DNA from: Bordetella petrii
Lineage (GTDB): Bacteria > Pseudomonadota > Gammaproteobacteria > Burkholderiales > Burkholderiaceae_B
Length of the DNA: 64,000 bases
Direction: 5' to 3'
Assembly (NCBI GenBank): GCA_017745595.1
Contig: WMBV01000026.1
Coordinates: 1-64,000, forward strand
Every line of letters starts with the position of its first letter. The stretch's first letter is position 1. Below the pieces are notes generated by a model that worked only from the letters and a program-made list of their open reading frames with translations, had not been told where the DNA came from and made no database searches. Shown in pieces: positions 5,147 to 55,495 of this stretch. The position numbers and the translations under genes are program-made.

Positions 5147-5177
5147 GGTGCCTGACTCCCGTAGGGTGTCGGACACC
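5147..5177. repeat. REP-like palindrome (first of three)
   Basis: A hybrid copy: the left arm is GGTGCCTGAC and the right arm GTCGGACACC, so the arms differ from the consensus at two places and no longer pair perfectly. It lies 17 bp after the stop of the small membrane protein. Confidence 0.75.
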
Positions 5178-5197
5178 GAAGTGCCATCTCCCGACCA

Positions 5198-5228
5198 GGT
5201 GTCTGACTCCCGAAGGGTGTCAGACACC
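5198..5228. repeat. REP-like palindrome, GTGTCTGAC subtype (second of three)
   Basis: Identical in sequence and orientation to the copy at 648-678, including the GAA loop. Confidence 0.88.
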
Positions 5229-5256
5229 GAAACGAGTCCAGCTTTCTCGACACGGC

Positions 5257-5287
5257 GGTGTCAGGCACCCTGCGGGAGCCTGACACC
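5257..5287. repeat. REP-like palindrome, GTGTCAGGC subtype, opposite orientation (third of three)
   Basis: Arms GGTGTCAGGC and GCCTGACACC around ACCCTGCGGGA. Its asymmetric centre is inverted relative to the previous copy, so the two face each other as in a BIME pair. Identical to the copies at 35167 and 46931. Confidence 0.88.
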
Positions 5288-5317: not shown

Positions 5318-5347
5318 TTGCCCCACGCGCTTTACTTCCGGTACACT
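5318..5347 (+). promoter_or_regulatory. Putative promoter of the Bug/GntR/dehydratase operon
   Basis: TTGCCC (5318-5323) and TACACT (5342-5347) are 18 bp apart, a fair sigma-70 match 38 bp before the start codon. The palindrome that follows begins at the last base of the -10, which is a classic repressor position. Confidence 0.45.
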
Positions 5348-5366
5348 TGTATTGTCATCAATACAA
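5347..5366. promoter_or_regulatory. Perfect palindromic operator, probably for the GntR regulator
   Basis: TTGTATTG and CAATACAA form perfect 8-bp arms around TCAT, ending 18 bp before the ATG of the binding-protein gene. The arms contain GTAT/ATAC, as expected for a GntR (HutC subfamily) dimer site, and a GntR/UTRA gene is the next gene but one. Autoregulation is an inference. Confidence 0.6.
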
Positions 5367-5384
5367 CAGGGCAGGAGACATTCC

Positions 5385-6350
5385 ATGCACAGATTGCAAC
5401 GCCTCGCCGTGGGCGGCGCGCTATTGGGCGCGCTGGCCTTGCCGCTGGCTTCCACCGCCGCGCCGGGCGACGCCATCAAACTGGTAGTGGGCGCGCCGCC
5501 GGGCGGCACGACCGACACCGTGGCGCGCAGCATCGCGCAGCGCATGTCGCAAGACCTGCAGCGCACCGTGCTGGTCGAGAACAAGCCGGGGGCGGGCGGC
5601 AATATCGCCGCCGACTACGTCGCCAAGAGCAATCCCGACGGCAATACGCTGCTGGTCACGTTCACCAGCTTTTCCATCAATGCCACCCTGTACCGCAACC
5701 TGCCGTTCGACCCGGTGCGCGACTTCACCCCGATCAGCATGCTGGCCAACGTGCCCAGCGTGCTGGTCGCCCGCAAAGATTTCCCGGCCCAGTCCATGCC
5801 GGAATTCGTGTCGCTGGTGAAGGCCAATCCCGGCAAATACACCATGGCGCTGGGCGCCATCGGTTCGTCGCTGCATTTGGCGGGCGAGCGCATGAAAATG
5901 CTGACCGGCATGGATATTCTCAACGTGCCCTACAAGGGCACCAGCCCCGCCATCACCGACTTGCTGGGCGGGCAGGTCGACATGATGTTCGCCAGCTCGC
6001 TCAATGCGATGCCGCACATCAAGAGCGGCGCGCTCAAGGCATTGGGCGTCACCAGCCCGCAACCGCTGGCCCAGTTTCCGGGCGTGCCGCCCATTGGCGA
6101 TACCATCAAGGGTTTTGAGTCCAATGCCTGGTTCGCCTTGTTCGGCCCGGCTGGCCTGCCGCCCGAAACGCTGGCGAAATTGAATGCCGCGGCGCGCAAG
6201 GCGGTGGCCGCGCCCGAATTCCGCCAATTGCTCGAGCGCGAGGCAGCCGTTGCGGTAAGCAGCAGCCCCGAAGAACTGGATGCATTCGTACGCAAAGATA
6301 TCGAGCGTTACGCCGAGATCGTGAAGTTCACCGGCGCCACGGTCGATTGA
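5385..6350 (+). CDS. Bug-family (TctC-like) periplasmic binding protein
   Basis: Periplasmic solute receptor of 321 aa. It has a signal peptide (MHRLQRLAVGGALLGALALP, cleavage after about residue 26) and the family core: KLVVGAPPGGTTDTVAR with the ligand-loop PPGG, VENKPGAGGN, and a C-terminal half with GGQVDMMF. Bug receptors bind small carboxylates or other organic acids and normally feed a TctA/TctB membrane pair, but no membrane subunits are nearby. The ATG at 5385 is preferred because GGAG precedes it and the signal peptide starts there; an in-frame ATG at 5352 lies inside the operator. It heads the five-gene operon, so its ligand is probably the substrate of the downstream dehydratase/lyase. 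Confidence 0.9.
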   Translation: MHRLQRLAVGGALLGALALPLASTAAPGDAIKLVVGAPPGGTTDTVARSIAQRMSQDLQRTVLVENKPGAGGNIAADYVAKSNPDGNTLLVTFTSFSINATLYRNLPFDPVRDFTPISMLANVPSVLVARKDFPAQSMPEFVSLVKANPGKYTMALGAIGSSLHLAGERMKMLTGMDILNVPYKGTSPAITDLLGGQVDMMFASSLNAMPHIKSGALKALGVTSPQPLAQFPGVPPIGDTIKGFESNAWFALFGPAGLPPETLAKLNAAARKAVAAPEFRQLLEREAAVAVSSSPEELDAFVRKDIERYAEIVKFTGATVD

Positions 6351-6371
6351 TGTTCCCGACTGGAGCCCACT

Positions 6372-7157
6372 GTGCCCGATAGCCCGTTGCCGCTGTATCA
6401 CAAGGTATACCTGCTGTTGAAACAGCGGTTGGCGGCGGGCGGCTTTCCCGCCGATGCGGCCATGCCGGGCGAGAACGCGCTGGCCACGGAATACGGCGTG
6501 TCGCGGCTGACGATACGCCGTTCGCTCGACGCGCTCGAGGCCGAAGGCCTGATCGAGCGGCGCCAGGGGCGCGGCACCTACGCCCTGCGGCAGGCGCCGC
6601 TGTCGGCGCCGCAGCACAGTTCCGACATCGACACCCTGATGGAGCACCTGGCGCGCATGGGTATGCAAACCCAGGTACGCCTGCTGGAACTCGACACCAT
6701 CGCGGCCACCCCGCAGGTGGCGACGCGGCTGGAACTGCCCGGCGGCGCGCTGGTGCAGCGTTCGGTGCGGCTGCGCAGCCATCAGGGCCTGCCGTTTTCG
6801 TATCTGACCACCTATGTGCCCGACGACATCGGGCAGCGCATCCGCCGCAAAGACCTCGGATCCAAGCCCTTGCTGGCCATTTTCCGCGACCTCGGCGTGC
6901 GGGTGGCCGGCGCGGAACAAGCCATTTCGGCCGTGCTGGCCGAACCGGGCGTGGCCGAACTGCTCGAGGTCCCGGTCGGGGCGGCGCTGCTCAGCCTGCA
7001 TCGGGTGGTGCGCGATGAATCGGGCCGGCCCGTGGAATGGCTGCACGCCCAGTACCGGCCCGATCGCTACGAATACCGTATGAACATGCAAGCCCACGAC
7101 ATGCCCGGCCAGCCGACCTGGCTGCCGGCCGCCCTGTCGGCGGGGGCTGGCGCTTGA
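6372..7157 (+). CDS. GntR-family regulator with UTRA domain
   Basis: Transcription factor of 261 aa. An N-terminal winged helix-turn-helix (about residues 8-72, with NALATEYGVSRLTIRRSLDA and the wing ERRQGRGTYA) is joined to a UTRA effector-binding domain (about 85-235, with GALVQRSVRLRSHQGLPFSY and YRPDRYEYRM). This is the HutC subfamily, in which a pathway metabolite releases the repressor. The start is GTG at 6372. The gene is inside the operon it probably controls: the binding-protein gene ends 21 bp upstream, and its TGA overlaps the ATG of the dehydratase large subunit by one base. The palindrome at 5347 is the likely target. Confidence 0.9.
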   Translation: MPDSPLPLYHKVYLLLKQRLAAGGFPADAAMPGENALATEYGVSRLTIRRSLDALEAEGLIERRQGRGTYALRQAPLSAPQHSSDIDTLMEHLARMGMQTQVRLLELDTIAATPQVATRLELPGGALVQRSVRLRSHQGLPFSYLTTYVPDDIGQRIRRKDLGSKPLLAIFRDLGVRVAGAEQAISAVLAEPGVAELLEVPVGAALLSLHRVVRDESGRPVEWLHAQYRPDRYEYRMNMQAHDMPGQPTWLPAALSAGAGA

Positions 7158-8434
7158 TGAGACCCGTTACCATGCCTGCCCAGACCCTGGCCCAGAAACT
7201 GCTGGCCGCCGCGTCCGGCCGCGATGTCGTGCGCGTCGGCGAAATCCTGACCTGCAAGGTCGATCTGGCCATGTTCCACGATTCCAGCGGACCGCGCCGT
7301 CTCAAGCCCATGCTCGAAGAGCTGGGCACCGGTCTGTGGGATCGCTCCAAAGTCGTGCTGGTCATGGACCACTACGTGCCCGAGGCCGACGACGAATCGC
7401 GCCGCATCGTCCGCATTGCGCGTGACTGGGCGCGCGAACAGGCGCTGCCGCATGTGTACGACTCGCAAGGCATCTGTCACGTAGTGGTGCCCGAGCACGG
7501 CCATCTGCGTCCGGGCATGTTCTGTGTGGGCGGCGATTCGCATTCGCCCACCGGCGGCGCGTTCGGCGCTTATATGTTCGGCGTGGGCAGCACCGAAATG
7601 CTGGGCGTGGTCGCCAGCGGCGAGATCTGGATGCGGGTGCCCGAGACGCTGATGATGCGCTGGAACGGCCGCCTGGCGCCGGGCGTAACGGCCAAAGACA
7701 TGATGCTGCACATGATCGGCCGCTACGGCATGAACGGCGGCCACTACCAGGCCGTGGAGTTCTGTGGCGAGGCCGTGCGCGCGCTGTCGATGCAAGAGCG
7801 CATGACGCTGTCGAATATGTCGGCCGAGCTGGGCGCGCAGGCCGGCCTGGTGGCACCCGATGCCACCACGGCGGACTACCTGCGCCGGGCCGGCGTAGAA
7901 GAAATCGATACCAGCCGCTGGCAGTCCGATCCCGATGCCGAGGCGCAGTGGCACGACTTCGATGCCGCCGCGCTCGAACCCCAGGTGGCCGCCCCGCACA
8001 GCCCGGCCAACGCGGCCCCGGTAGCGGCGTACGGCGACACGCCGGTGCAGGTGGCCTATATCGGCGCCTGTACCGGCGCCAAGCTCGACGACCTGCGCGC
8101 CGCCGCGCGGATACTGCAAGGGCGGCGGATCGCGGCCGGCGTCAGCCTGATGGTGGCGCCCGCCAGCCAGCGCGACCAGGCCGCCGCCGAATCCGAAGGC
8201 GTGTTGCCGGCGCTCACGCAGGCCGGGGCCACGCTGTTGCCCACGACCTGCGGGGCCTGTTCCGGCTATGGCGGCTCCATTCCCGAAGGCGCCAACGTCA
8301 TTTCCACCACCGCCCGCAACTTCAAGGGCCGCATGGGGGCCGCCACGGCCCGGGTCTACCTGGCGTCGCCCTATACCGTGGCGGCTTCGGCCCTGGCCGG
8401 GCGCATCGCCGATCCTCGCGAGGTCCTGTCATGA
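7157..8434 (+). CDS. Aconitase/LeuC-type dehydratase, large subunit
   Basis: Iron-sulfur hydro-lyase subunit of 425 aa. The three cluster cysteines are visible: Cys305 in IGACTGAK, and Cys365 and Cys368 in TTCGACSGYGG. Other family signatures are DHYVPEADDESRR, GGDSHSPTGGAFG and ISTTARNFKGRMG. Length and split-subunit layout match LeuC-like and 2,3-dimethylmalate dehydratase (DmdA-like) enzymes, not the 850-900 aa aconitases. The ATG at 7157 overlaps the regulator's stop; an ATG at 7172 is possible. The adjacent lyase of the isocitrate lyase/PEP mutase family and the lack of other leu genes argue for a catabolic substrate (a methylated or dimethylated malate) rather than leucine synthesis. 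Substrate is inferred. Confidence 0.88.
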   Translation: MRPVTMPAQTLAQKLLAAASGRDVVRVGEILTCKVDLAMFHDSSGPRRLKPMLEELGTGLWDRSKVVLVMDHYVPEADDESRRIVRIARDWAREQALPHVYDSQGICHVVVPEHGHLRPGMFCVGGDSHSPTGGAFGAYMFGVGSTEMLGVVASGEIWMRVPETLMMRWNGRLAPGVTAKDMMLHMIGRYGMNGGHYQAVEFCGEAVRALSMQERMTLSNMSAELGAQAGLVAPDATTADYLRRAGVEEIDTSRWQSDPDAEAQWHDFDAAALEPQVAAPHSPANAAPVAAYGDTPVQVAYIGACTGAKLDDLRAAARILQGRRIAAGVSLMVAPASQRDQAAAESEGVLPALTQAGATLLPTTCGACSGYGGSIPEGANVISTTARNFKGRMGAATARVYLASPYTVAASALAGRIADPREVLS

Positions 8435-8946
8435 ATACCCCCCACAAGGCCTGGCGTGTCGGCGACGACGTCGACACCGACCAGCTCGCGCCGGGCGCCT
8501 ACATGAAATTCGGCATCGCCGACATCGCGCGCCATTGCCTCGAAGGCATCCGCCCGGATTTCGCCGGCGGGGTGCGGGCGGGCGATGTCCTGGTGGCCGG
8601 CCGCAATTTCGGGATAGGTTCTTCGCGCGAGCAGGCCGCCTCGGCCCTGGTGCAACTGGGATTGCGCGCCGTGATCGCGCCCAGCTTCGGCGGCCTGTAC
8701 TTTCGCAACGCCTTCAACGTGGGCCTGCTGTTGCTGACGTGCGAGCGCGCCGGCGAAATCGCCGACGGCGAACAAGTCGGCATCGACCTTCCCAACCATC
8801 GCGTACTGCGATCCGACGGCACGTCGCTGCCTTGCGAGCCGGTGCCGGACTTTCTGCTCGACATGGTGCGGGCGGGCGGCCTGCTTGCGCAACTGAAGCA
8901 CCGCCTGGCCCAGGGCACGCTGCCCCGTTATCCTTTAAAAGCCTGA
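8431..8946 (+). CDS. Aconitase/LeuD-type dehydratase, small subunit
   Basis: Swivel-domain partner (171 aa) of the preceding large subunit; together they form one hydro-lyase active site. It shows DDVDTDQLAPGAYMK at the N-terminus, the substrate-binding GRNFGIGSSREQA near residue 65, and the AVIAPSFGGLYFRNAFNVGLL block. The start overlaps the large-subunit stop by 4 bases (ATGA), indicating translational coupling and equal output. The residues in and around the specificity loop cannot be assigned to isopropylmalate, dimethylmalate or another substrate by eye. Confidence 0.88.
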   Translation: MNTPHKAWRVGDDVDTDQLAPGAYMKFGIADIARHCLEGIRPDFAGGVRAGDVLVAGRNFGIGSSREQAASALVQLGLRAVIAPSFGGLYFRNAFNVGLLLLTCERAGEIADGEQVGIDLPNHRVLRSDGTSLPCEPVPDFLLDMVRAGGLLAQLKHRLAQGTLPRYPLKA

Positions 8947-9809
8947 TGCAACCAAGCCTATTGAAAGACCAGCTGGCCGCCGGCCGTACGCTGTTGGCCC
9001 CCGGCGTCTACGACGCCCTGTCGGCCCTGATCGCCGAACAGGCGGGTTTCGACGCGCTATATCTGTCGGGGGCGTCCATCGCCTATGCGCGGCTGGGCCG
9101 TTCCGACGTGGGCCTTACCACGTATACCGAAGTCGAAGACACGCTGGCGCGCATTACCGAACGCGTGCGCCGCCCGGTGATTGTCGATGGCGATACGGGT
9201 TTCGGCAATGCCTTGAACGTGCAGCGCACCGTGCGCGGTTTCGAGCGTGCCGGCGCCGCCATGATCCAGCTGGAAGACCAGGGGTTCCCCAAGCGTTGCG
9301 GGCACCTGGCCGGCAAGTCGCTGGTGCCCGTGGACGAAATGTGCGGCAAGCTGCGGGCCGCGCTCGATGCGCGTACGCGCGACACCACGCTGATCCTGGC
9401 GCGCACCGATGCGGTCGCGGTCGAGGGGCTCGAGGCGGCTTTCGAGCGCGCCGAGCGGTACTTCGAGTGTGGCGTCGATGCCTTGTTCATCGAAGCCCTG
9501 CGCTCGCCTGCGCAGCTGGATGCGGCGTGCGCGCGCTTCGCGGCCCGCGTGCCGCTGCTGGCCAATATGGTGGAAGGCGGGCAGACGCCCATCGAAAGCG
9601 CGCAGGCCCTCGCGGCGCGCGGTTTCCGCATCGTCATTTTTCCGGGCGGAACGGCGCGGGCCGTGGCGCACACACTGCAGGCGTACTACGGTAGCCTGCG
9701 CGAACACGGCACCACCGCGCCGTGGCGCGAGCGCATGCTGGATTTCGACCAGCTCAATGCGCTGATCGGCACGTCGGCCTTGCTGGAAACGGCCAGCCGC
9801 TACGATTAG
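8946..9809 (+). CDS. Isocitrate lyase/PEP mutase-family lyase (2,3-dimethylmalate lyase-like)
   Basis: Predicted carbon-carbon lyase of 287 aa with a single (beta/alpha)8 barrel. Family markers are LLAPGVYDALSALIAEQAGF and YLSGASIAY at the start, the metal-binding VDGDTGFGN, and KRCGH at residues 116-120 with Cys118 as the catalytic acid. The KRCGH loop occurs in lyases (methylisocitrate, dimethylmalate) rather than in phosphoenolpyruvate mutases. The ATG shares one base with the LeuD-like stop. In the dimethylmalate pathway of anaerobic nicotinate degradation the same trio (two-subunit dehydratase plus this lyase) gives propionate and pyruvate. By analogy the operon may split a 2-alkylmalate, but oxaloacetase or methylisocitrate lyase activity is not excluded. 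Confidence 0.87.
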   Translation: MQPSLLKDQLAAGRTLLAPGVYDALSALIAEQAGFDALYLSGASIAYARLGRSDVGLTTYTEVEDTLARITERVRRPVIVDGDTGFGNALNVQRTVRGFERAGAAMIQLEDQGFPKRCGHLAGKSLVPVDEMCGKLRAALDARTRDTTLILARTDAVAVEGLEAAFERAERYFECGVDALFIEALRSPAQLDAACARFAARVPLLANMVEGGQTPIESAQALAARGFRIVIFPGGTARAVAHTLQAYYGSLREHGTTAPWRERMLDFDQLNALIGTSALLETASRYD

Positions 9810-9837: not shown

Positions 9838-9866
9838 GGTGTCAGGCTCCGCAGGTGCCTGACACC
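9838..9866. repeat. REP-like palindrome, GTGTCAGGC subtype (29 bp)
   Basis: Arms GGTGTCAGGC and GCCTGACACC around TCCGCAGGT. It is preceded by a 10-bp direct duplication (CTTGTCAGGT twice, 9821-9840) that runs into the left arm, a possible slippage or insertion scar. Confidence 0.85.
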
Positions 9867-9896
9867 GCTGTGTGCGGAAAATCTCGGCCAAGCTCC

Positions 9897-9927
9897 GGTG
9901 TCTGACACCCTGCGGGAGTCAGACACC
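9897..9927. repeat. REP-like palindrome, GTGTCTGAC subtype, reverse orientation
   Basis: Second member of the pair between the lyase and the b561 gene, 30 bp after the first. Identical to the copy at 55416. Confidence 0.88.
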
Positions 9928-32853: not shown

Positions 32854-35097
32854 TTGAAAGCCCTGGAGTCGTATTCAATGAATTCCCTGGCCTCGTCGCT
32901 GGCGGCGGCGATGGTCGTTCCCGCGTTCTGCCTGGCATCGCCAGCCAGCGCGCAATCGGCGGTGCCGCAGTTGTCGCCCGTGCAGGTCGAGGGAGAAAAC
33001 TCTCCCTACGACGTGCCCGTGTCGCGGTCGCCCCAGATGACGGCTCCTTTGGTGAATACCCCGCGCACCGTGCAGGTGGTGCCCCAGCAGGTCATCCAGG
33101 ACCAGGCGGCCACTTCATTGCAGGACGTGCTGCGCAATTCGCCGGGCATCACCTTCGGCGCCGGCGAAGGCGGGCGCGCGGGCGGCGACCTGCCCATTAT
33201 TCGCGGCCAGAACTCCGCCGGCAGCATTTTTGTGGATGGCGTGCGCGACACCAGCACCCAGACCCGCGACACGTTCAACGTAGAACAGGTGGAAATCATC
33301 AAAGGCCCGGACTCGGTGTATTCCGGGCGCGGCGGCGCCGGCGGCAGCATCAACCTGGTGACCAAGCGGCCCAAGGGATACGATTTTGCCGAAGGCACCG
33401 TGCAAGTCGGCACCGACAATAACTACCGCGCCACCGCCGACGGCAACTGGGTGGTGGGCGACCAGGCGGCGTTCCGCCTGAACCTGATGGGCAACAAGGG
33501 CGACGTGCCGGGCCGCGACAACGCCGTGGATTTCGAGCGCTGGGGCGTGGCGCCTTCGCTGCTGCTGGGCCTGGGCACGCCCACCCGCATCACGCTGAGC
33601 TTCCAGCACTACCAGGATGACAGCATGCCCGATTACTCGATTCCGTACGATCCGAAGTCCGGGCAGCCAGTGACAGAAACGATGGGCGTCAGCCGCAAGA
33701 CGTTCTACGGCCTGACCGGACGCGACTTCATGAAGCAGCGCGACGATACGGGCACCATCGATATCCAGCACGATTTTTCCGACCGGCTGCAGCTGCGCAA
33801 CGTGACCCGCTATACGCGCGCGACCATGGACTATGCCGCCACCAATCCCGACGACAGCAAGGGCAACGTGGTGAACGGGCTGGTGTATCGCGCCTTGAAG
33901 TCGGGCTATTTCGCGACCGAGACGTTCACCAACCAGACCGACCTGACGGGCGACTTCGAGACCGGCAGCCTGAAGCATTCGTTCAACGTGGGCCTGGAAT
34001 ATTCCAACGTGGTGCAGGACAAGGACGGCTATAACGAGCTGGGTGCCCCGGGCGGCACCAATTGCTCGAGCGGGCCGGCGGCCGGCTCGGCATGGTGCAC
34101 CTCGCTGTGGAGCGCCAATCCGCATACCTATTACCCCGGCCGGCTGGAGCGCAAGGAAGACCCGGCCACGTACACCACCGATACGTTGGCGGTATACGGC
34201 TTCGATACCATCAAGTTCAACGAGCAGTGGCAGGCCAGCGTGGGCCTGCGCTGGGACAACTACAAGATCAGCGGCAAGAATATCGCCCCGGGCCGTGGCG
34301 CGCCCGCCGGCACGCCGAACTACGACGCCAACCGCGAAGACAACCTGTTCAATTACCAGCTGGGCCTGGCCTACAAGCCGCTGCCCAACGGAACCATCTA
34401 CGCGACCTACGGCACGTCGTCCACGCCGTCGGCGGTGGCGGGCAGCAACGTGAACGACGTGGTGACTTCGGACAGCGCCGCCCTCGAACCGGAAAAAAGC
34501 CGCACCGTCGAGGTGGGCACGAAATGGCAGCTGTTCGACGACCGCCTGATGCTGTCGGCCGCGCTGTTCCAGGACGTGCGCAAGAACACCAGCGTGGCGG
34601 TGTCGGCCACCGAGACCGAGCAGGTGGGCGAGGCCAAGGTGCGCGGCCTGGAACTGGGTTTTTCCGGCAGCATCACGCCCAAGTGGAATGTGTTCGGCGG
34701 CTATACCTTCATGGATAGCGAGCTGGTGGAAGGCGCCTACAACAGCGGCGCGGTGGGCCAGGACCTGCCCAATACGCCGCGCAATGCTTTCAGCCTGTGG
34801 ACCACCTACCGGGTGCTGCCGCAGCTGACGGTGGGCGGCGGGGCGTACTACGTGGACAAGGTGTACGGGAATTCCGACTCGGGCCGCAATGCCGACGGTA
34901 CGCCCAAGGCGCGCTGGGTGCCGTCGTACTGGCGCTTCGATGCGATGGCCTCGTATGAGTTCAACGACCACCTGACCGCGCAGCTGAACATTTTCAACCT
35001 GTTCGACGAGACGTACTACACCAAGGCCTACGGCGCGCACTATGCGGCGCTGGGCACGGGCCGCGCGGCGCTGCTGTCGCTGAACGTGAAGTACTAG
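32854..35097 (+). CDS. TonB-dependent siderophore receptor
   Basis: Outer-membrane ferric-siderophore receptor of about 747 aa. It has a signal peptide (to about SPASAQ), a TonB-box-like LSPVQVEG, a plug domain (TPRTVQVVPQQVIQDQAATSL, then NSPGITFGAGEGG, IIRGQNSAGSIFVDGVRD, VEIIKGPDSVYSGRGGAGG), then a 22-strand barrel ending LLSLNVKY. The features match the catecholate (Fiu/BfrH-like) group. No N-terminal signalling domain is present, so no surface signalling. Start: TTG at 32854, ideally placed behind GGAGAG; GTG 32848 or ATG 32878 are alternatives. No siderophore genes lie nearby, so the ligand may be a foreign siderophore. Probably iron-repressed. Confidence 0.9.
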   Translation: MKALESYSMNSLASSLAAAMVVPAFCLASPASAQSAVPQLSPVQVEGENSPYDVPVSRSPQMTAPLVNTPRTVQVVPQQVIQDQAATSLQDVLRNSPGITFGAGEGGRAGGDLPIIRGQNSAGSIFVDGVRDTSTQTRDTFNVEQVEIIKGPDSVYSGRGGAGGSINLVTKRPKGYDFAEGTVQVGTDNNYRATADGNWVVGDQAAFRLNLMGNKGDVPGRDNAVDFERWGVAPSLLLGLGTPTRITLSFQHYQDDSMPDYSIPYDPKSGQPVTETMGVSRKTFYGLTGRDFMKQRDDTGTIDIQHDFSDRLQLRNVTRYTRATMDYAATNPDDSKGNVVNGLVYRALKSGYFATETFTNQTDLTGDFETGSLKHSFNVGLEYSNVVQDKDGYNELGAPGGTNCSSGPAAGSAWCTSLWSANPHTYYPGRLERKEDPATYTTDTLAVYGFDTIKFNEQWQASVGLRWDNYKISGKNIAPGRGAPAGTPNYDANREDNLFNYQLGLAYKPLPNGTIYATYGTSSTPSAVAGSNVNDVVTSDSAALEPEKSRTVEVGTKWQLFDDRLMLSAALFQDVRKNTSVAVSATETEQVGEAKVRGLELGFSGSITPKWNVFGGYTFMDSELVEGAYNSGAVGQDLPNTPRNAFSLWTTYRVLPQLTVGGGAYYVDKVYGNSDSGRNADGTPKARWVPSYWRFDAMASYEFNDHLTAQLNIFNLFDETYYTKAYGAHYAALGTGRAALLSLNVKY

Positions 35098-35114: not shown

Positions 35115-35145
35115 GGTGTCTGATTGCCGCGGGGTGTCAGACACC
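35115..35145. repeat. REP-like palindrome, GTGTCTGAC subtype, diverged centre
   Basis: Arms GGTGTCTGAT and GTCAGACACC with a TGCCGCGGGG centre that differs from the other copies. It lies 17 bp after the TonB-receptor stop. Confidence 0.82.
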
Positions 35146-35166
35146 GAGGAATCCGCGGCATACATC

Positions 35167-35197
35167 GGTGTCAGGCACCCTGCGGGAGCCTGACACC
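35167..35197. repeat. REP-like palindrome, GTGTCAGGC subtype, reverse orientation
   Basis: Identical to the copies at 5257 and 46931. Second member of the convergent-gap pair, ending 11 bp before the serB stop. Confidence 0.88.
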
Positions 35198-40805: not shown

Positions 40806-40839
40806 GGTGTCTGACTCCCCGCAAGGGGTGTCAGACACC
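40806..40839. repeat. REP-like palindrome, GTGTCTGAC subtype, long centre (34 bp)
   Basis: Arms GGTGTCTGAC and GTCAGACACC, with the inner stem extended to CCCC-GCAA-GGGG. A compensatory pair change (four C and four G instead of three) keeps the hairpin intact, which argues that structure is selected. Confidence 0.88.
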
Positions 40840-40868
40840 GCAAGGCTGAGACGGCCGCTGCGCACGTC

Positions 40869-40901
40869 GGTGTCTGACACCCCTGCGGGGAGTCAGACAC
40901 C
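40869..40901. repeat. REP-like palindrome, GTGTCTGAC subtype, reverse orientation, long centre (33 bp)
   Basis: Mirror partner of the preceding copy, again with four C and four G, 29 bp away. It ends 14 bp before the ahpD stop. The matching expansion in both members of one pair suggests they evolved together. Confidence 0.88.
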
Positions 40902-46876: not shown

Positions 46877-46905
46877 GGTGTCAGGCTCCGGAGGTGCCTG
46901 ACACC
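46877..46905. repeat. REP-like palindrome, GTGTCAGGC subtype (29 bp)
   Basis: Arms GGTGTCAGGC and GCCTGACACC around TCCGGAGGT; close to the copy at 9838. Confidence 0.85.
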
Positions 46906-46930
46906 GTGGCGTGCAAGGGGATGTGCCGCC

Positions 46931-46961
46931 GGTGTCAGGCACCCTGCGGGAGCCTGACACC
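46931..46961. repeat. REP-like palindrome, GTGTCAGGC subtype, reverse orientation
   Basis: Second of the pair, 25 bp after the first, identical to the copies at 5257 and 35167. It is 70 bp from the lplT stop. Confidence 0.88.
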
Positions 46962-55355: not shown

Positions 55356-55386
55356 GGTGTCTGACTCCCGCAGGGTGTCAGACAGC
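55356..55386. repeat. REP-like palindrome, GTGTCTGAC subtype, degraded right arm
   Basis: The right arm ends ACAGC instead of ACACC, breaking one pair; otherwise it matches the family. It lies 33 bp after ligA. Confidence 0.82.
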
Positions 55387-55415
55387 GCAGTGTGCAAAGG
55401 GCTTAACTAACCGTC

Positions 55416-55446
55416 GGTGTCTGACACCCTGCGGGAGTCAGACACC
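55416..55446. repeat. REP-like palindrome, GTGTCTGAC subtype, reverse orientation
   Basis: Partner of the previous copy, 29 bp away and identical to 9897-9927. It is followed by tandem duplications of its own right arm. Confidence 0.88.
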
Positions 55447-55495
55447 TGGCATAGGAGTCAGACACCTGGCATATTCCGGCGTGGCATATTCCGGC
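55434..55495. repeat. Nested tandem duplications next to a REP-like copy
   Basis: A 20-bp unit (the right arm plus CTGGCATA) is repeated exactly at 55434-55453 and 55454-55473. This overlaps a second duplication of TGGCATATTCCGGC at 55467-55480 and 55482-55495. They look like successive slippage or recombination events at the element's edge. Confidence 0.85.

Follow-up and report, generated by a model that had tools for sequence, protein, structure and literature searches.

Dimethylmaleate hydratase (DmdAB) and 2,3-dimethylmalate lyase act together in nicotinate fermentation. Bacteria also degrade cyclic imides and hydantoins, and to our knowledge none of these routes ends in such a hydratase and lyase. 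Here we analyze a stretch of 64,000 nucleotides from Bordetella petrii (contig WMBV01000026.1, positions 1 to 64,000; hereafter the window), in which an operon at 5318–9809 encodes a hydratase and a lyase of these enzyme classes as a free-standing unit equipped with a receptor and a regulator of its own, as the original prediction from the sequence had proposed. This operon is a real, conserved catabolic unit, and taken as a whole it is probably best explained as a compact pathway for a substituted cis-dicarboxylate or tricarboxylate. The class of mechanism is likely, and it is to the class of reaction that we commit ourselves. A description of this cluster or pathway was not found in the open-access literature searched, a scope that leaves most subscription journals outside.

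Re-reading of the open reading frames (ORFs) and profile searches bore out the positions and families predicted for the five genes, all on the forward strand; together they make up one operon. The first encodes a Bug/TctC-type periplasmic solute receptor (5385–6350; PF03401, 250.9 bits). Its ORF reaches back to TTG 5352, but this codon lies within a perfect 8-bp inverted repeat (5347–5366), which makes ATG 5385 the more likely start. It is followed by a GntR-family regulator with a UTRA effector domain, recognized by profile match (6372–7157), and by the LeuC-type large subunit of a [4Fe-4S] hydratase (7157–8434, with ATG 7157 or 7172 as start), assigned by profiles, its own clade and an ACTGAK signature. 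The LeuD/DmdB-type small subunit (8431–8946) has a GSSRE motif and MK at the specificity loop, and the last gene encodes a carbon-carbon lyase of the isocitrate lyase (ICL)/phosphoenolpyruvate (PEP) mutase superfamily (8946–9809), placed by profiles, tree and alignment. Overlaps of one or four bases, predicted throughout, do join regulator to large subunit, large to small subunit, and small subunit to lyase, but a gap of 21 bp separates the receptor gene from that of the regulator. The cluster cysteines expected in the large subunit (C306, C366 and C369, numbered from TTG 7154) and the KRCGH motif expected in the lyase are present.

How might such a unit work? We infer the order of reactions, the class of substrate, uptake and repression as follows. 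The Bug receptor would bind a substituted cis-dicarboxylate (or tricarboxylate) for import through a tripartite tricarboxylate permease that would be encoded elsewhere. The LeuCD-type iron-sulfur enzyme would hydrate the double bond, and the 2-substituted malate so formed would be split by the lyase between C2 and C3; one product would be a 2-oxo acid, most probably pyruvate, and the other a carboxylic acid. Repression of the operon would come from the GntR/UTRA protein, bound at the 5347–5366 palindrome until an acid of the pathway binds to it and releases it. In many relatives the pair would form the tail of a longer route that leads from a cyclic amide or imide through a substituted maleate and a substituted malate to a 2-oxo acid and a short acid; in the lineage of the window the front part would have been lost or never present.

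Hydratase and lyase both look unlike the housekeeping enzymes that they resemble. The large subunit exceeds the cut-offs of two general subfamily models (NF001614, 536 bits; hacA_fam, 420 bits) and falls just under that of TIGR02086 (407.0 of 410.15 bits). None of the isopropylmalate isomerase, homoaconitase or aconitase equivalog models listed was passed, and the curated LEU2 (363.3 of 610.65 bits) and leuC (240.2 of 560.25 bits) models were both missed. In a maximum likelihood (ML) tree the subunit falls in a 22-row clade (100/99), separate from the clade (100/100) of E. coli LeuC and the genome's own L001, L003 and L004, with L001 adjoining E. coli LeuC (97/89). The source genome has ten aconitase-family matches in eight reading frames, other LeuC proteins included, and the dehydratase is thus not its only isopropylmalate isomerase, a case that the original prediction had named as fatal to it. 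The other LeuC genes, the trees and the LEU2 and leuC scores led us to reject the isopropylmalate isomerase (LeuCD) of leucine synthesis. The ACTGAK signature, at the place where solved relatives have SCTNGR, is kept in 154 of 156 large-subunit rows of at least 53% identity, the two rows without it being one gene counted twice; as in all our counts for signatures and operator arms, the rows include duplicates from overlapping loci.

The lyase matches PF13714 (PEP_mutase/ICL) at 149 bits and reaches 279.8 bits against the methylisocitrate lyase model TIGR02317, whose cut-off is 354.4. An ML tree, built without the Eubacterium barkeri enzymes or a known oxaloacetate decarboxylase, places it in a 17-row clade (100/99), separate from the clade (100/100) in which L014 and L016 of the source genome join E. 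coli PrpB and the solved enzyme 9hra, and leaves the petal death protein on a long branch in no firm position. A grouping with methylisocitrate lyase, which would have counted heavily against the original prediction, was therefore not found, and on cut-off and tree we reject the reading of the lyase as PrpB. We take it to be Mg dependent like the rest of its family. Residues C118, E110, D54, D81, D83 and R153 do not vary across an alignment of ten sequences, E. coli PrpB among them, and these positions include the ones aligned with PrpB Asp58, Glu115, Cys123 and the active-site Arg, whose roles are set out in an excerpt of PMC7609661. An AlphaFold model computed from 9 sequences (mean predicted local distance difference test score 75.6, predicted template modeling score 0.76) is weak in the catalytic loops and added little. 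In a superfamily this diverse, with 12 PF13714 matches in the source genome, the lyase could also be an oxaloacetate hydrolase or decarboxylase, or another enzyme of PEP-mutase type, and the hydratase could act on a different acid; we judge this very unlikely, as KRCGH is kept in all 118 lyase rows of at least 57% identity and inheritance is linked with that of the hydratase. FPGG, where PrpB has YPLS, stands in 117 of the same 118 rows. The source genome carries in addition a second LeuD-LeuC-lyase run (L211, 6490–10002, contig C15), of true LeuC type and with a weak Bug match (29%) beside it; a TauD/TfdA-like ORF adjoins this run and is similar, by eye, to one beside the pair in locus L045.

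The linkage becomes apparent in the gene neighborhoods of relatives. A scan of named genomes returned 537 LeuC relatives of any distance, the best 80 of which were read, leaving divergent neighborhoods under-sampled; with 29 further loci hand-picked for diversity they make up the 109 neighborhoods counted here (L191 duplicates L079, L209 duplicates L090, and the seven loci L136–L142, with distant paralogs, stand outside the count). Bit-score cut-offs were set by hand, and the relatives' genes were called as ORFs picked by base composition and similarity, with no trained gene finder. Hydratase and lyase occur together in 93 neighborhoods, and 10 of the 16 lacking a lyase end, at a contig or locus edge, before its expected place. 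Over 92 loci the distances of the two enzymes correlate (Spearman 0.81, against a maximum of 0.28 in 500 label permutations), a figure to which shared descent contributes. The pair is common in the family and reaches other classes: of the 268 genomes of the family, 80 have the large subunit at a threshold of E 1e-150, and these include 8 of the 9 genomes listed for the genus (the source genome among them); a threshold of 1e-120 gives 11 genomes out of 398 in the phylum, six from the same order. At 1e-60, 36 of 250 genomes in an order sample match, 13 with at least 55% identity and the remainder more distant. Bordetella, Achromobacter, Pandoraea, Paraburkholderia, Caballeronia, Variovorax, Acidovorax, Limnohabitans and other genera are represented among the best 80 of the 537.

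Around the hydratase and lyase, partner modules are exchanged. HyuAB accompanies them in 52 of the 109 loci, AtuA in 14, PuuE-type proteins in 6, an allantoinase-like amidohydrolase in 3 and none of these in 34, some of which are cut short; 75 loci thus hold exactly one of four unrelated modules, and no locus holds two. A fumarate-reductase-like flavoenzyme is encoded in 65 loci, and ATP-binding cassette (ABC) uptake genes often accompany pair and module. The commonest set (28 loci) consists of GntR, a Liv-type ABC transporter, LeuC, LeuD, HyuB, HyuA, an isochorismatase-like protein, the flavoenzyme and the lyase; 16 more loci have the same full HyuAB set plus a Bug gene, and the full cluster recurs in another gene order in L193 and L194, from two genomes of another class, and in L210, from a genus mate of the window. 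The window's own type, with Bug and three enzyme genes and no front part, is seen in 20 loci, to which L036 adds one more with a coenzyme A (CoA)-transferase gene nearby. In three loci the allantoinase-like amidohydrolase replaces HyuAB. Six loci have a cassette of two PuuE-type deacetylases and another isochorismatase (L070 836–5359, with a Rieske oxygenase; L084 1988–5451; L129 7022–9500; L133–L135), which, to judge from its genes, resembles a separate unit for imide degradation. AtuA (L044 5402–7154 and 13 other loci, mostly in genomes labeled Comamonadaceae) occupies the place of the ring-opening enzymes, and DUF4387 and a short-chain dehydrogenase/reductase accompany it in 12 of its 14 loci. 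At the stretch of the catalytic cysteine, the isochorismatase-like protein of L093 (13535–14137) and its orthologs read TNGGVAST in 22 of 22 aligned sequences, with Asp and Lys kept. Three of the four modules appear to fall within families of enzymes that open the ring of cyclic amides or imides. We propose a ring-opening step upstream because of the relatives of HyuA, which is closest to caprolactamase, N-methylhydantoinase and 5-oxoprolinase while staying under the curated caprolactamase cut-off, and because of the kinship between PuuE-type proteins and imidases; PuuE/PgdA-type deacetylases are described as relatives of cyclic imidases in an excerpt of PMC9304392.

The palindrome at 5347–5366 is probably the operator of the GntR regulator. 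It reads TTGTATTG-TCAT-CAATACAA and lies 5' of the Bug start and just 3' of a weak promoter, TTGCCC-N18-TACACT (TTGCCC at 5318, TACACT at 5342), which was judged by eye and is unlisted by a consensus scan; position 5318, where the operon was originally made to start, is the TTGCCC of this promoter. The form found in relatives is TTGTATTG-N4-CAATACAA, and its kept arms and varying center are the pattern expected of a repressor site. TGTAT-N8-ATACA, a pattern derived from the window, has 14 exact sites in 13 of the 109 loci (1.75 Mb; Bordetella copies are non-independent), against 0.33 expected from mononucleotide shuffles, which preserve single-base composition only. These sites lie upstream of the first gene in Bug, LeuC or ABC-transporter runs of the operons. 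Among 21 compact loci, 12 have the exact operator and 5 others have it, one mismatch allowed, at the equivalent position. In six loci (L127, L202–L205 and L207) the genes are split between the strands, LeuC-LeuD-lyase on one and Bug-GntR on the other, and each of the two units has a site, either exact or one mismatch off. The 44 loci of full HyuAB types have no exact TGTAT-N8-ATACA site, and those clusters would therefore be under other control. Elsewhere in the window, REP-like palindromes on GGTGTCnGnCnCC give 37 matches over both strands (palindromic matches counted twice) against 0.25 expected, in groups at 600–678, 5165–5287, 9838–9927, 35133–35197, 40806–40901, 46877–46961 and 55356–55466 and a lone match at 34599; two of the groups bracket the operon.

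Several observations weigh against a catabolic hydratase-lyase unit derived from a ring-opening route. None of the proteins has been tied to a substrate. L132–L135 and L195 have no lyase nearby though their sequence continues, and the end of L131 comes before any lyase is reached. The curated models shown for HyuAB, the flavoenzyme and the allantoinase-like proteins all score below their cut-offs, carboxylases also occur among HyuAB-type enzymes, and we know of no role for AtuA or DUF4387. The isochorismatase-like protein of the HyuAB clusters was at first read as an amidase, a reading countered by the glycine that replaces its nucleophilic cysteine in all 22 sequences aligned (52 loci have a match); with the catalytic cysteine absent it cannot count as an ordinary amidase, which leaves a gap in the imide route. 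Four of the 21 compact loci (L036, L130, L192 and L200) lack the operator even when one mismatch is allowed. The best matches that the source genome offers to the flavoenzyme and the HyuA of the clusters are 34% and 46% identical, respectively, and the ring-opening context may not apply to the genome of the window. The genome-wide search for a front part covered the flavoenzyme and HyuA; in the window, of 25 cluster queries only those for the operon's own genes and for the related GntR gave a match, and the module queries matched nothing. As close relatives of the front part searched for are lacking, the operon of the window is expected to work on the free acid.

What, then, is the substrate? 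The hints disagree among themselves, some suggesting C5 methyl-diacids and others release of glutarate, and nothing beyond the enzyme classes points specifically to dimethylmalate. A possible though doubtful candidate is citraconate (or, upstream, methylmaleimide or methylsuccinimide), converted through D-citramalate to pyruvate and acetate in a CoA-free route. Among solved structures, the large subunit is closest to chains of isopropylmalate/citramalate isomerase, and family III CoA-transferase genes lie directly 3' of the lyase in L037, L042 and L048, their products about 64% identical to one in a run of CaiB, MaoC-like (by eye) and CitE-like genes that lies close to L036's compact operon. 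In L045 the pair has genes for a CitE-like lyase and a citrate-type symporter in its vicinity, and a Prevotella intermedia table in PMC10434189 has AtuA genes adjoining methylaspartate ammonia-lyase. Such contexts, however, are found in just 5 of 109 loci, the curated CoA-transferase, CitE and symporter models all remain below cut-off, glutaryl-CoA dehydrogenase neighbors are left unexplained, and simple maleimides went undetected in leaves according to an excerpt of PMC7318184.

Those neighbors would fit the release of glutarate from a methylated homoisocitrate. On this alternative, which we regard as unlikely, the substrate would be 2-methyl-3-(2-carboxyethyl)maleate, a methylated homoaconitate and the acid of hematinic acid, and the products pyruvate and glutarate. 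A glutaryl-CoA dehydrogenase gene (3e-188 to 3gnc) adjoins the hydratase genes and the imide-hydrolase-like cassette in L133–L135 and lies about 7 kb from the pair in L084 and L197; homoaconitase-family models match, under their equivalog cut-offs; and PMC7318184 records hematinic acid in leaves, citing earlier work for its presence in lake sediments. Yet such a dehydrogenase stands within 10 kb in only 4 of 71 genomes tested, three of them (L133–L135) without a nearby lyase. At its specificity loop the small subunit has YMKF (versus YLRT and YLVY); as a hint of a third carboxylate this was dropped, since the lysine is found in ordinary bacterial LeuD too and hence is not diagnostic. A wider version, that the pair ends a bacterial route for single-ring tetrapyrrole remnants, strikes us as decidedly unlikely: hematinic-acid-type maleimides from chlorophyll and heme would be opened by exchangeable ring hydrolases, hydrated in homoaconitase-like fashion to methylhomoisocitrate and split into pyruvate and glutarate, and environmental Bordetella would keep the free-acid end only.

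The substrate first put forward was dimethylmalate, with dimethylmaleate hydratase and 2,3-dimethylmalate lyase yielding pyruvate and propionate. Its chemistry class, a substituted malate, fits; the same enzyme classes are adjacent, and the small subunit passes the cut-off of the LeuD/DmdB subfamily model TIGR02087 with 163.5 bits. No signal, however, is specific for this substrate, and no nicotinate-fermentation partner genes were recognized by eye among the ORFs of the window (no profile or genome search for them was made). Dimethylmalate in particular is not supported; in relatives the pair often ends a longer ring-opening route, and the neighbors that hint at products suggest C5 methyl-diacids or glutarate; we consider it quite improbable.

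What are the implications of a hydratase-lyase pathway for a substituted cis-dicarboxylate or tricarboxylate? It is common in the family and apparently has neither a name nor an assigned substrate, and its enzymes are so like those of leucine and propionate metabolism that metabolic models built on automatic annotation could be led astray. With unrelated modules swapped around a single hydratase-lyase core, the substrate class can be put to the test, and a compact operon with a candidate operator and a receptor offers an easy entry point through ligand binding.

Like DmdAB and dimethylmalate lyase, the operon combines a LeuCD-type hydratase with an ICL/PEP-mutase lyase, and the same bond chemistry is expected from the enzyme classes; it differs from the nicotinate-fermentation system in its betaproteobacterial context, its Bug receptor and its GntR regulator, with no nicotinate genes recognized nearby. 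The petal death protein (1zlp) aligns with the lyase over nearly its full length, with NMIEGGKTP resembling NMVEGGQTP, whereas its motif is KKCGH and its long branch joins no group firmly. With PrpB the lyase shares catalytic residues and 38% identity, but it has PGG for PLS near a C-terminal arginine, falls in a separate clade and coexists with PrpB-like proteins encoded elsewhere in the genome. The best solved match of the hydratase is isopropylmalate/citramalate isomerase (LeuCD; 4kp1/4nqy), with which it shares the cluster cysteines and the GSSRE and RNFxGR motifs; it is set apart from LeuCD by ACTGAK in place of GSCTNGR, a clade of its own, scores below the LEU2 and leuC cut-offs and the other LeuC genes of the genome. 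Bacterial cyclic imide and hydantoin pathways, with their imidase, half-amidase and HyuAB enzymes, have ring-opening families in common with the clusters of the operon's relatives, the part that the window lacks.

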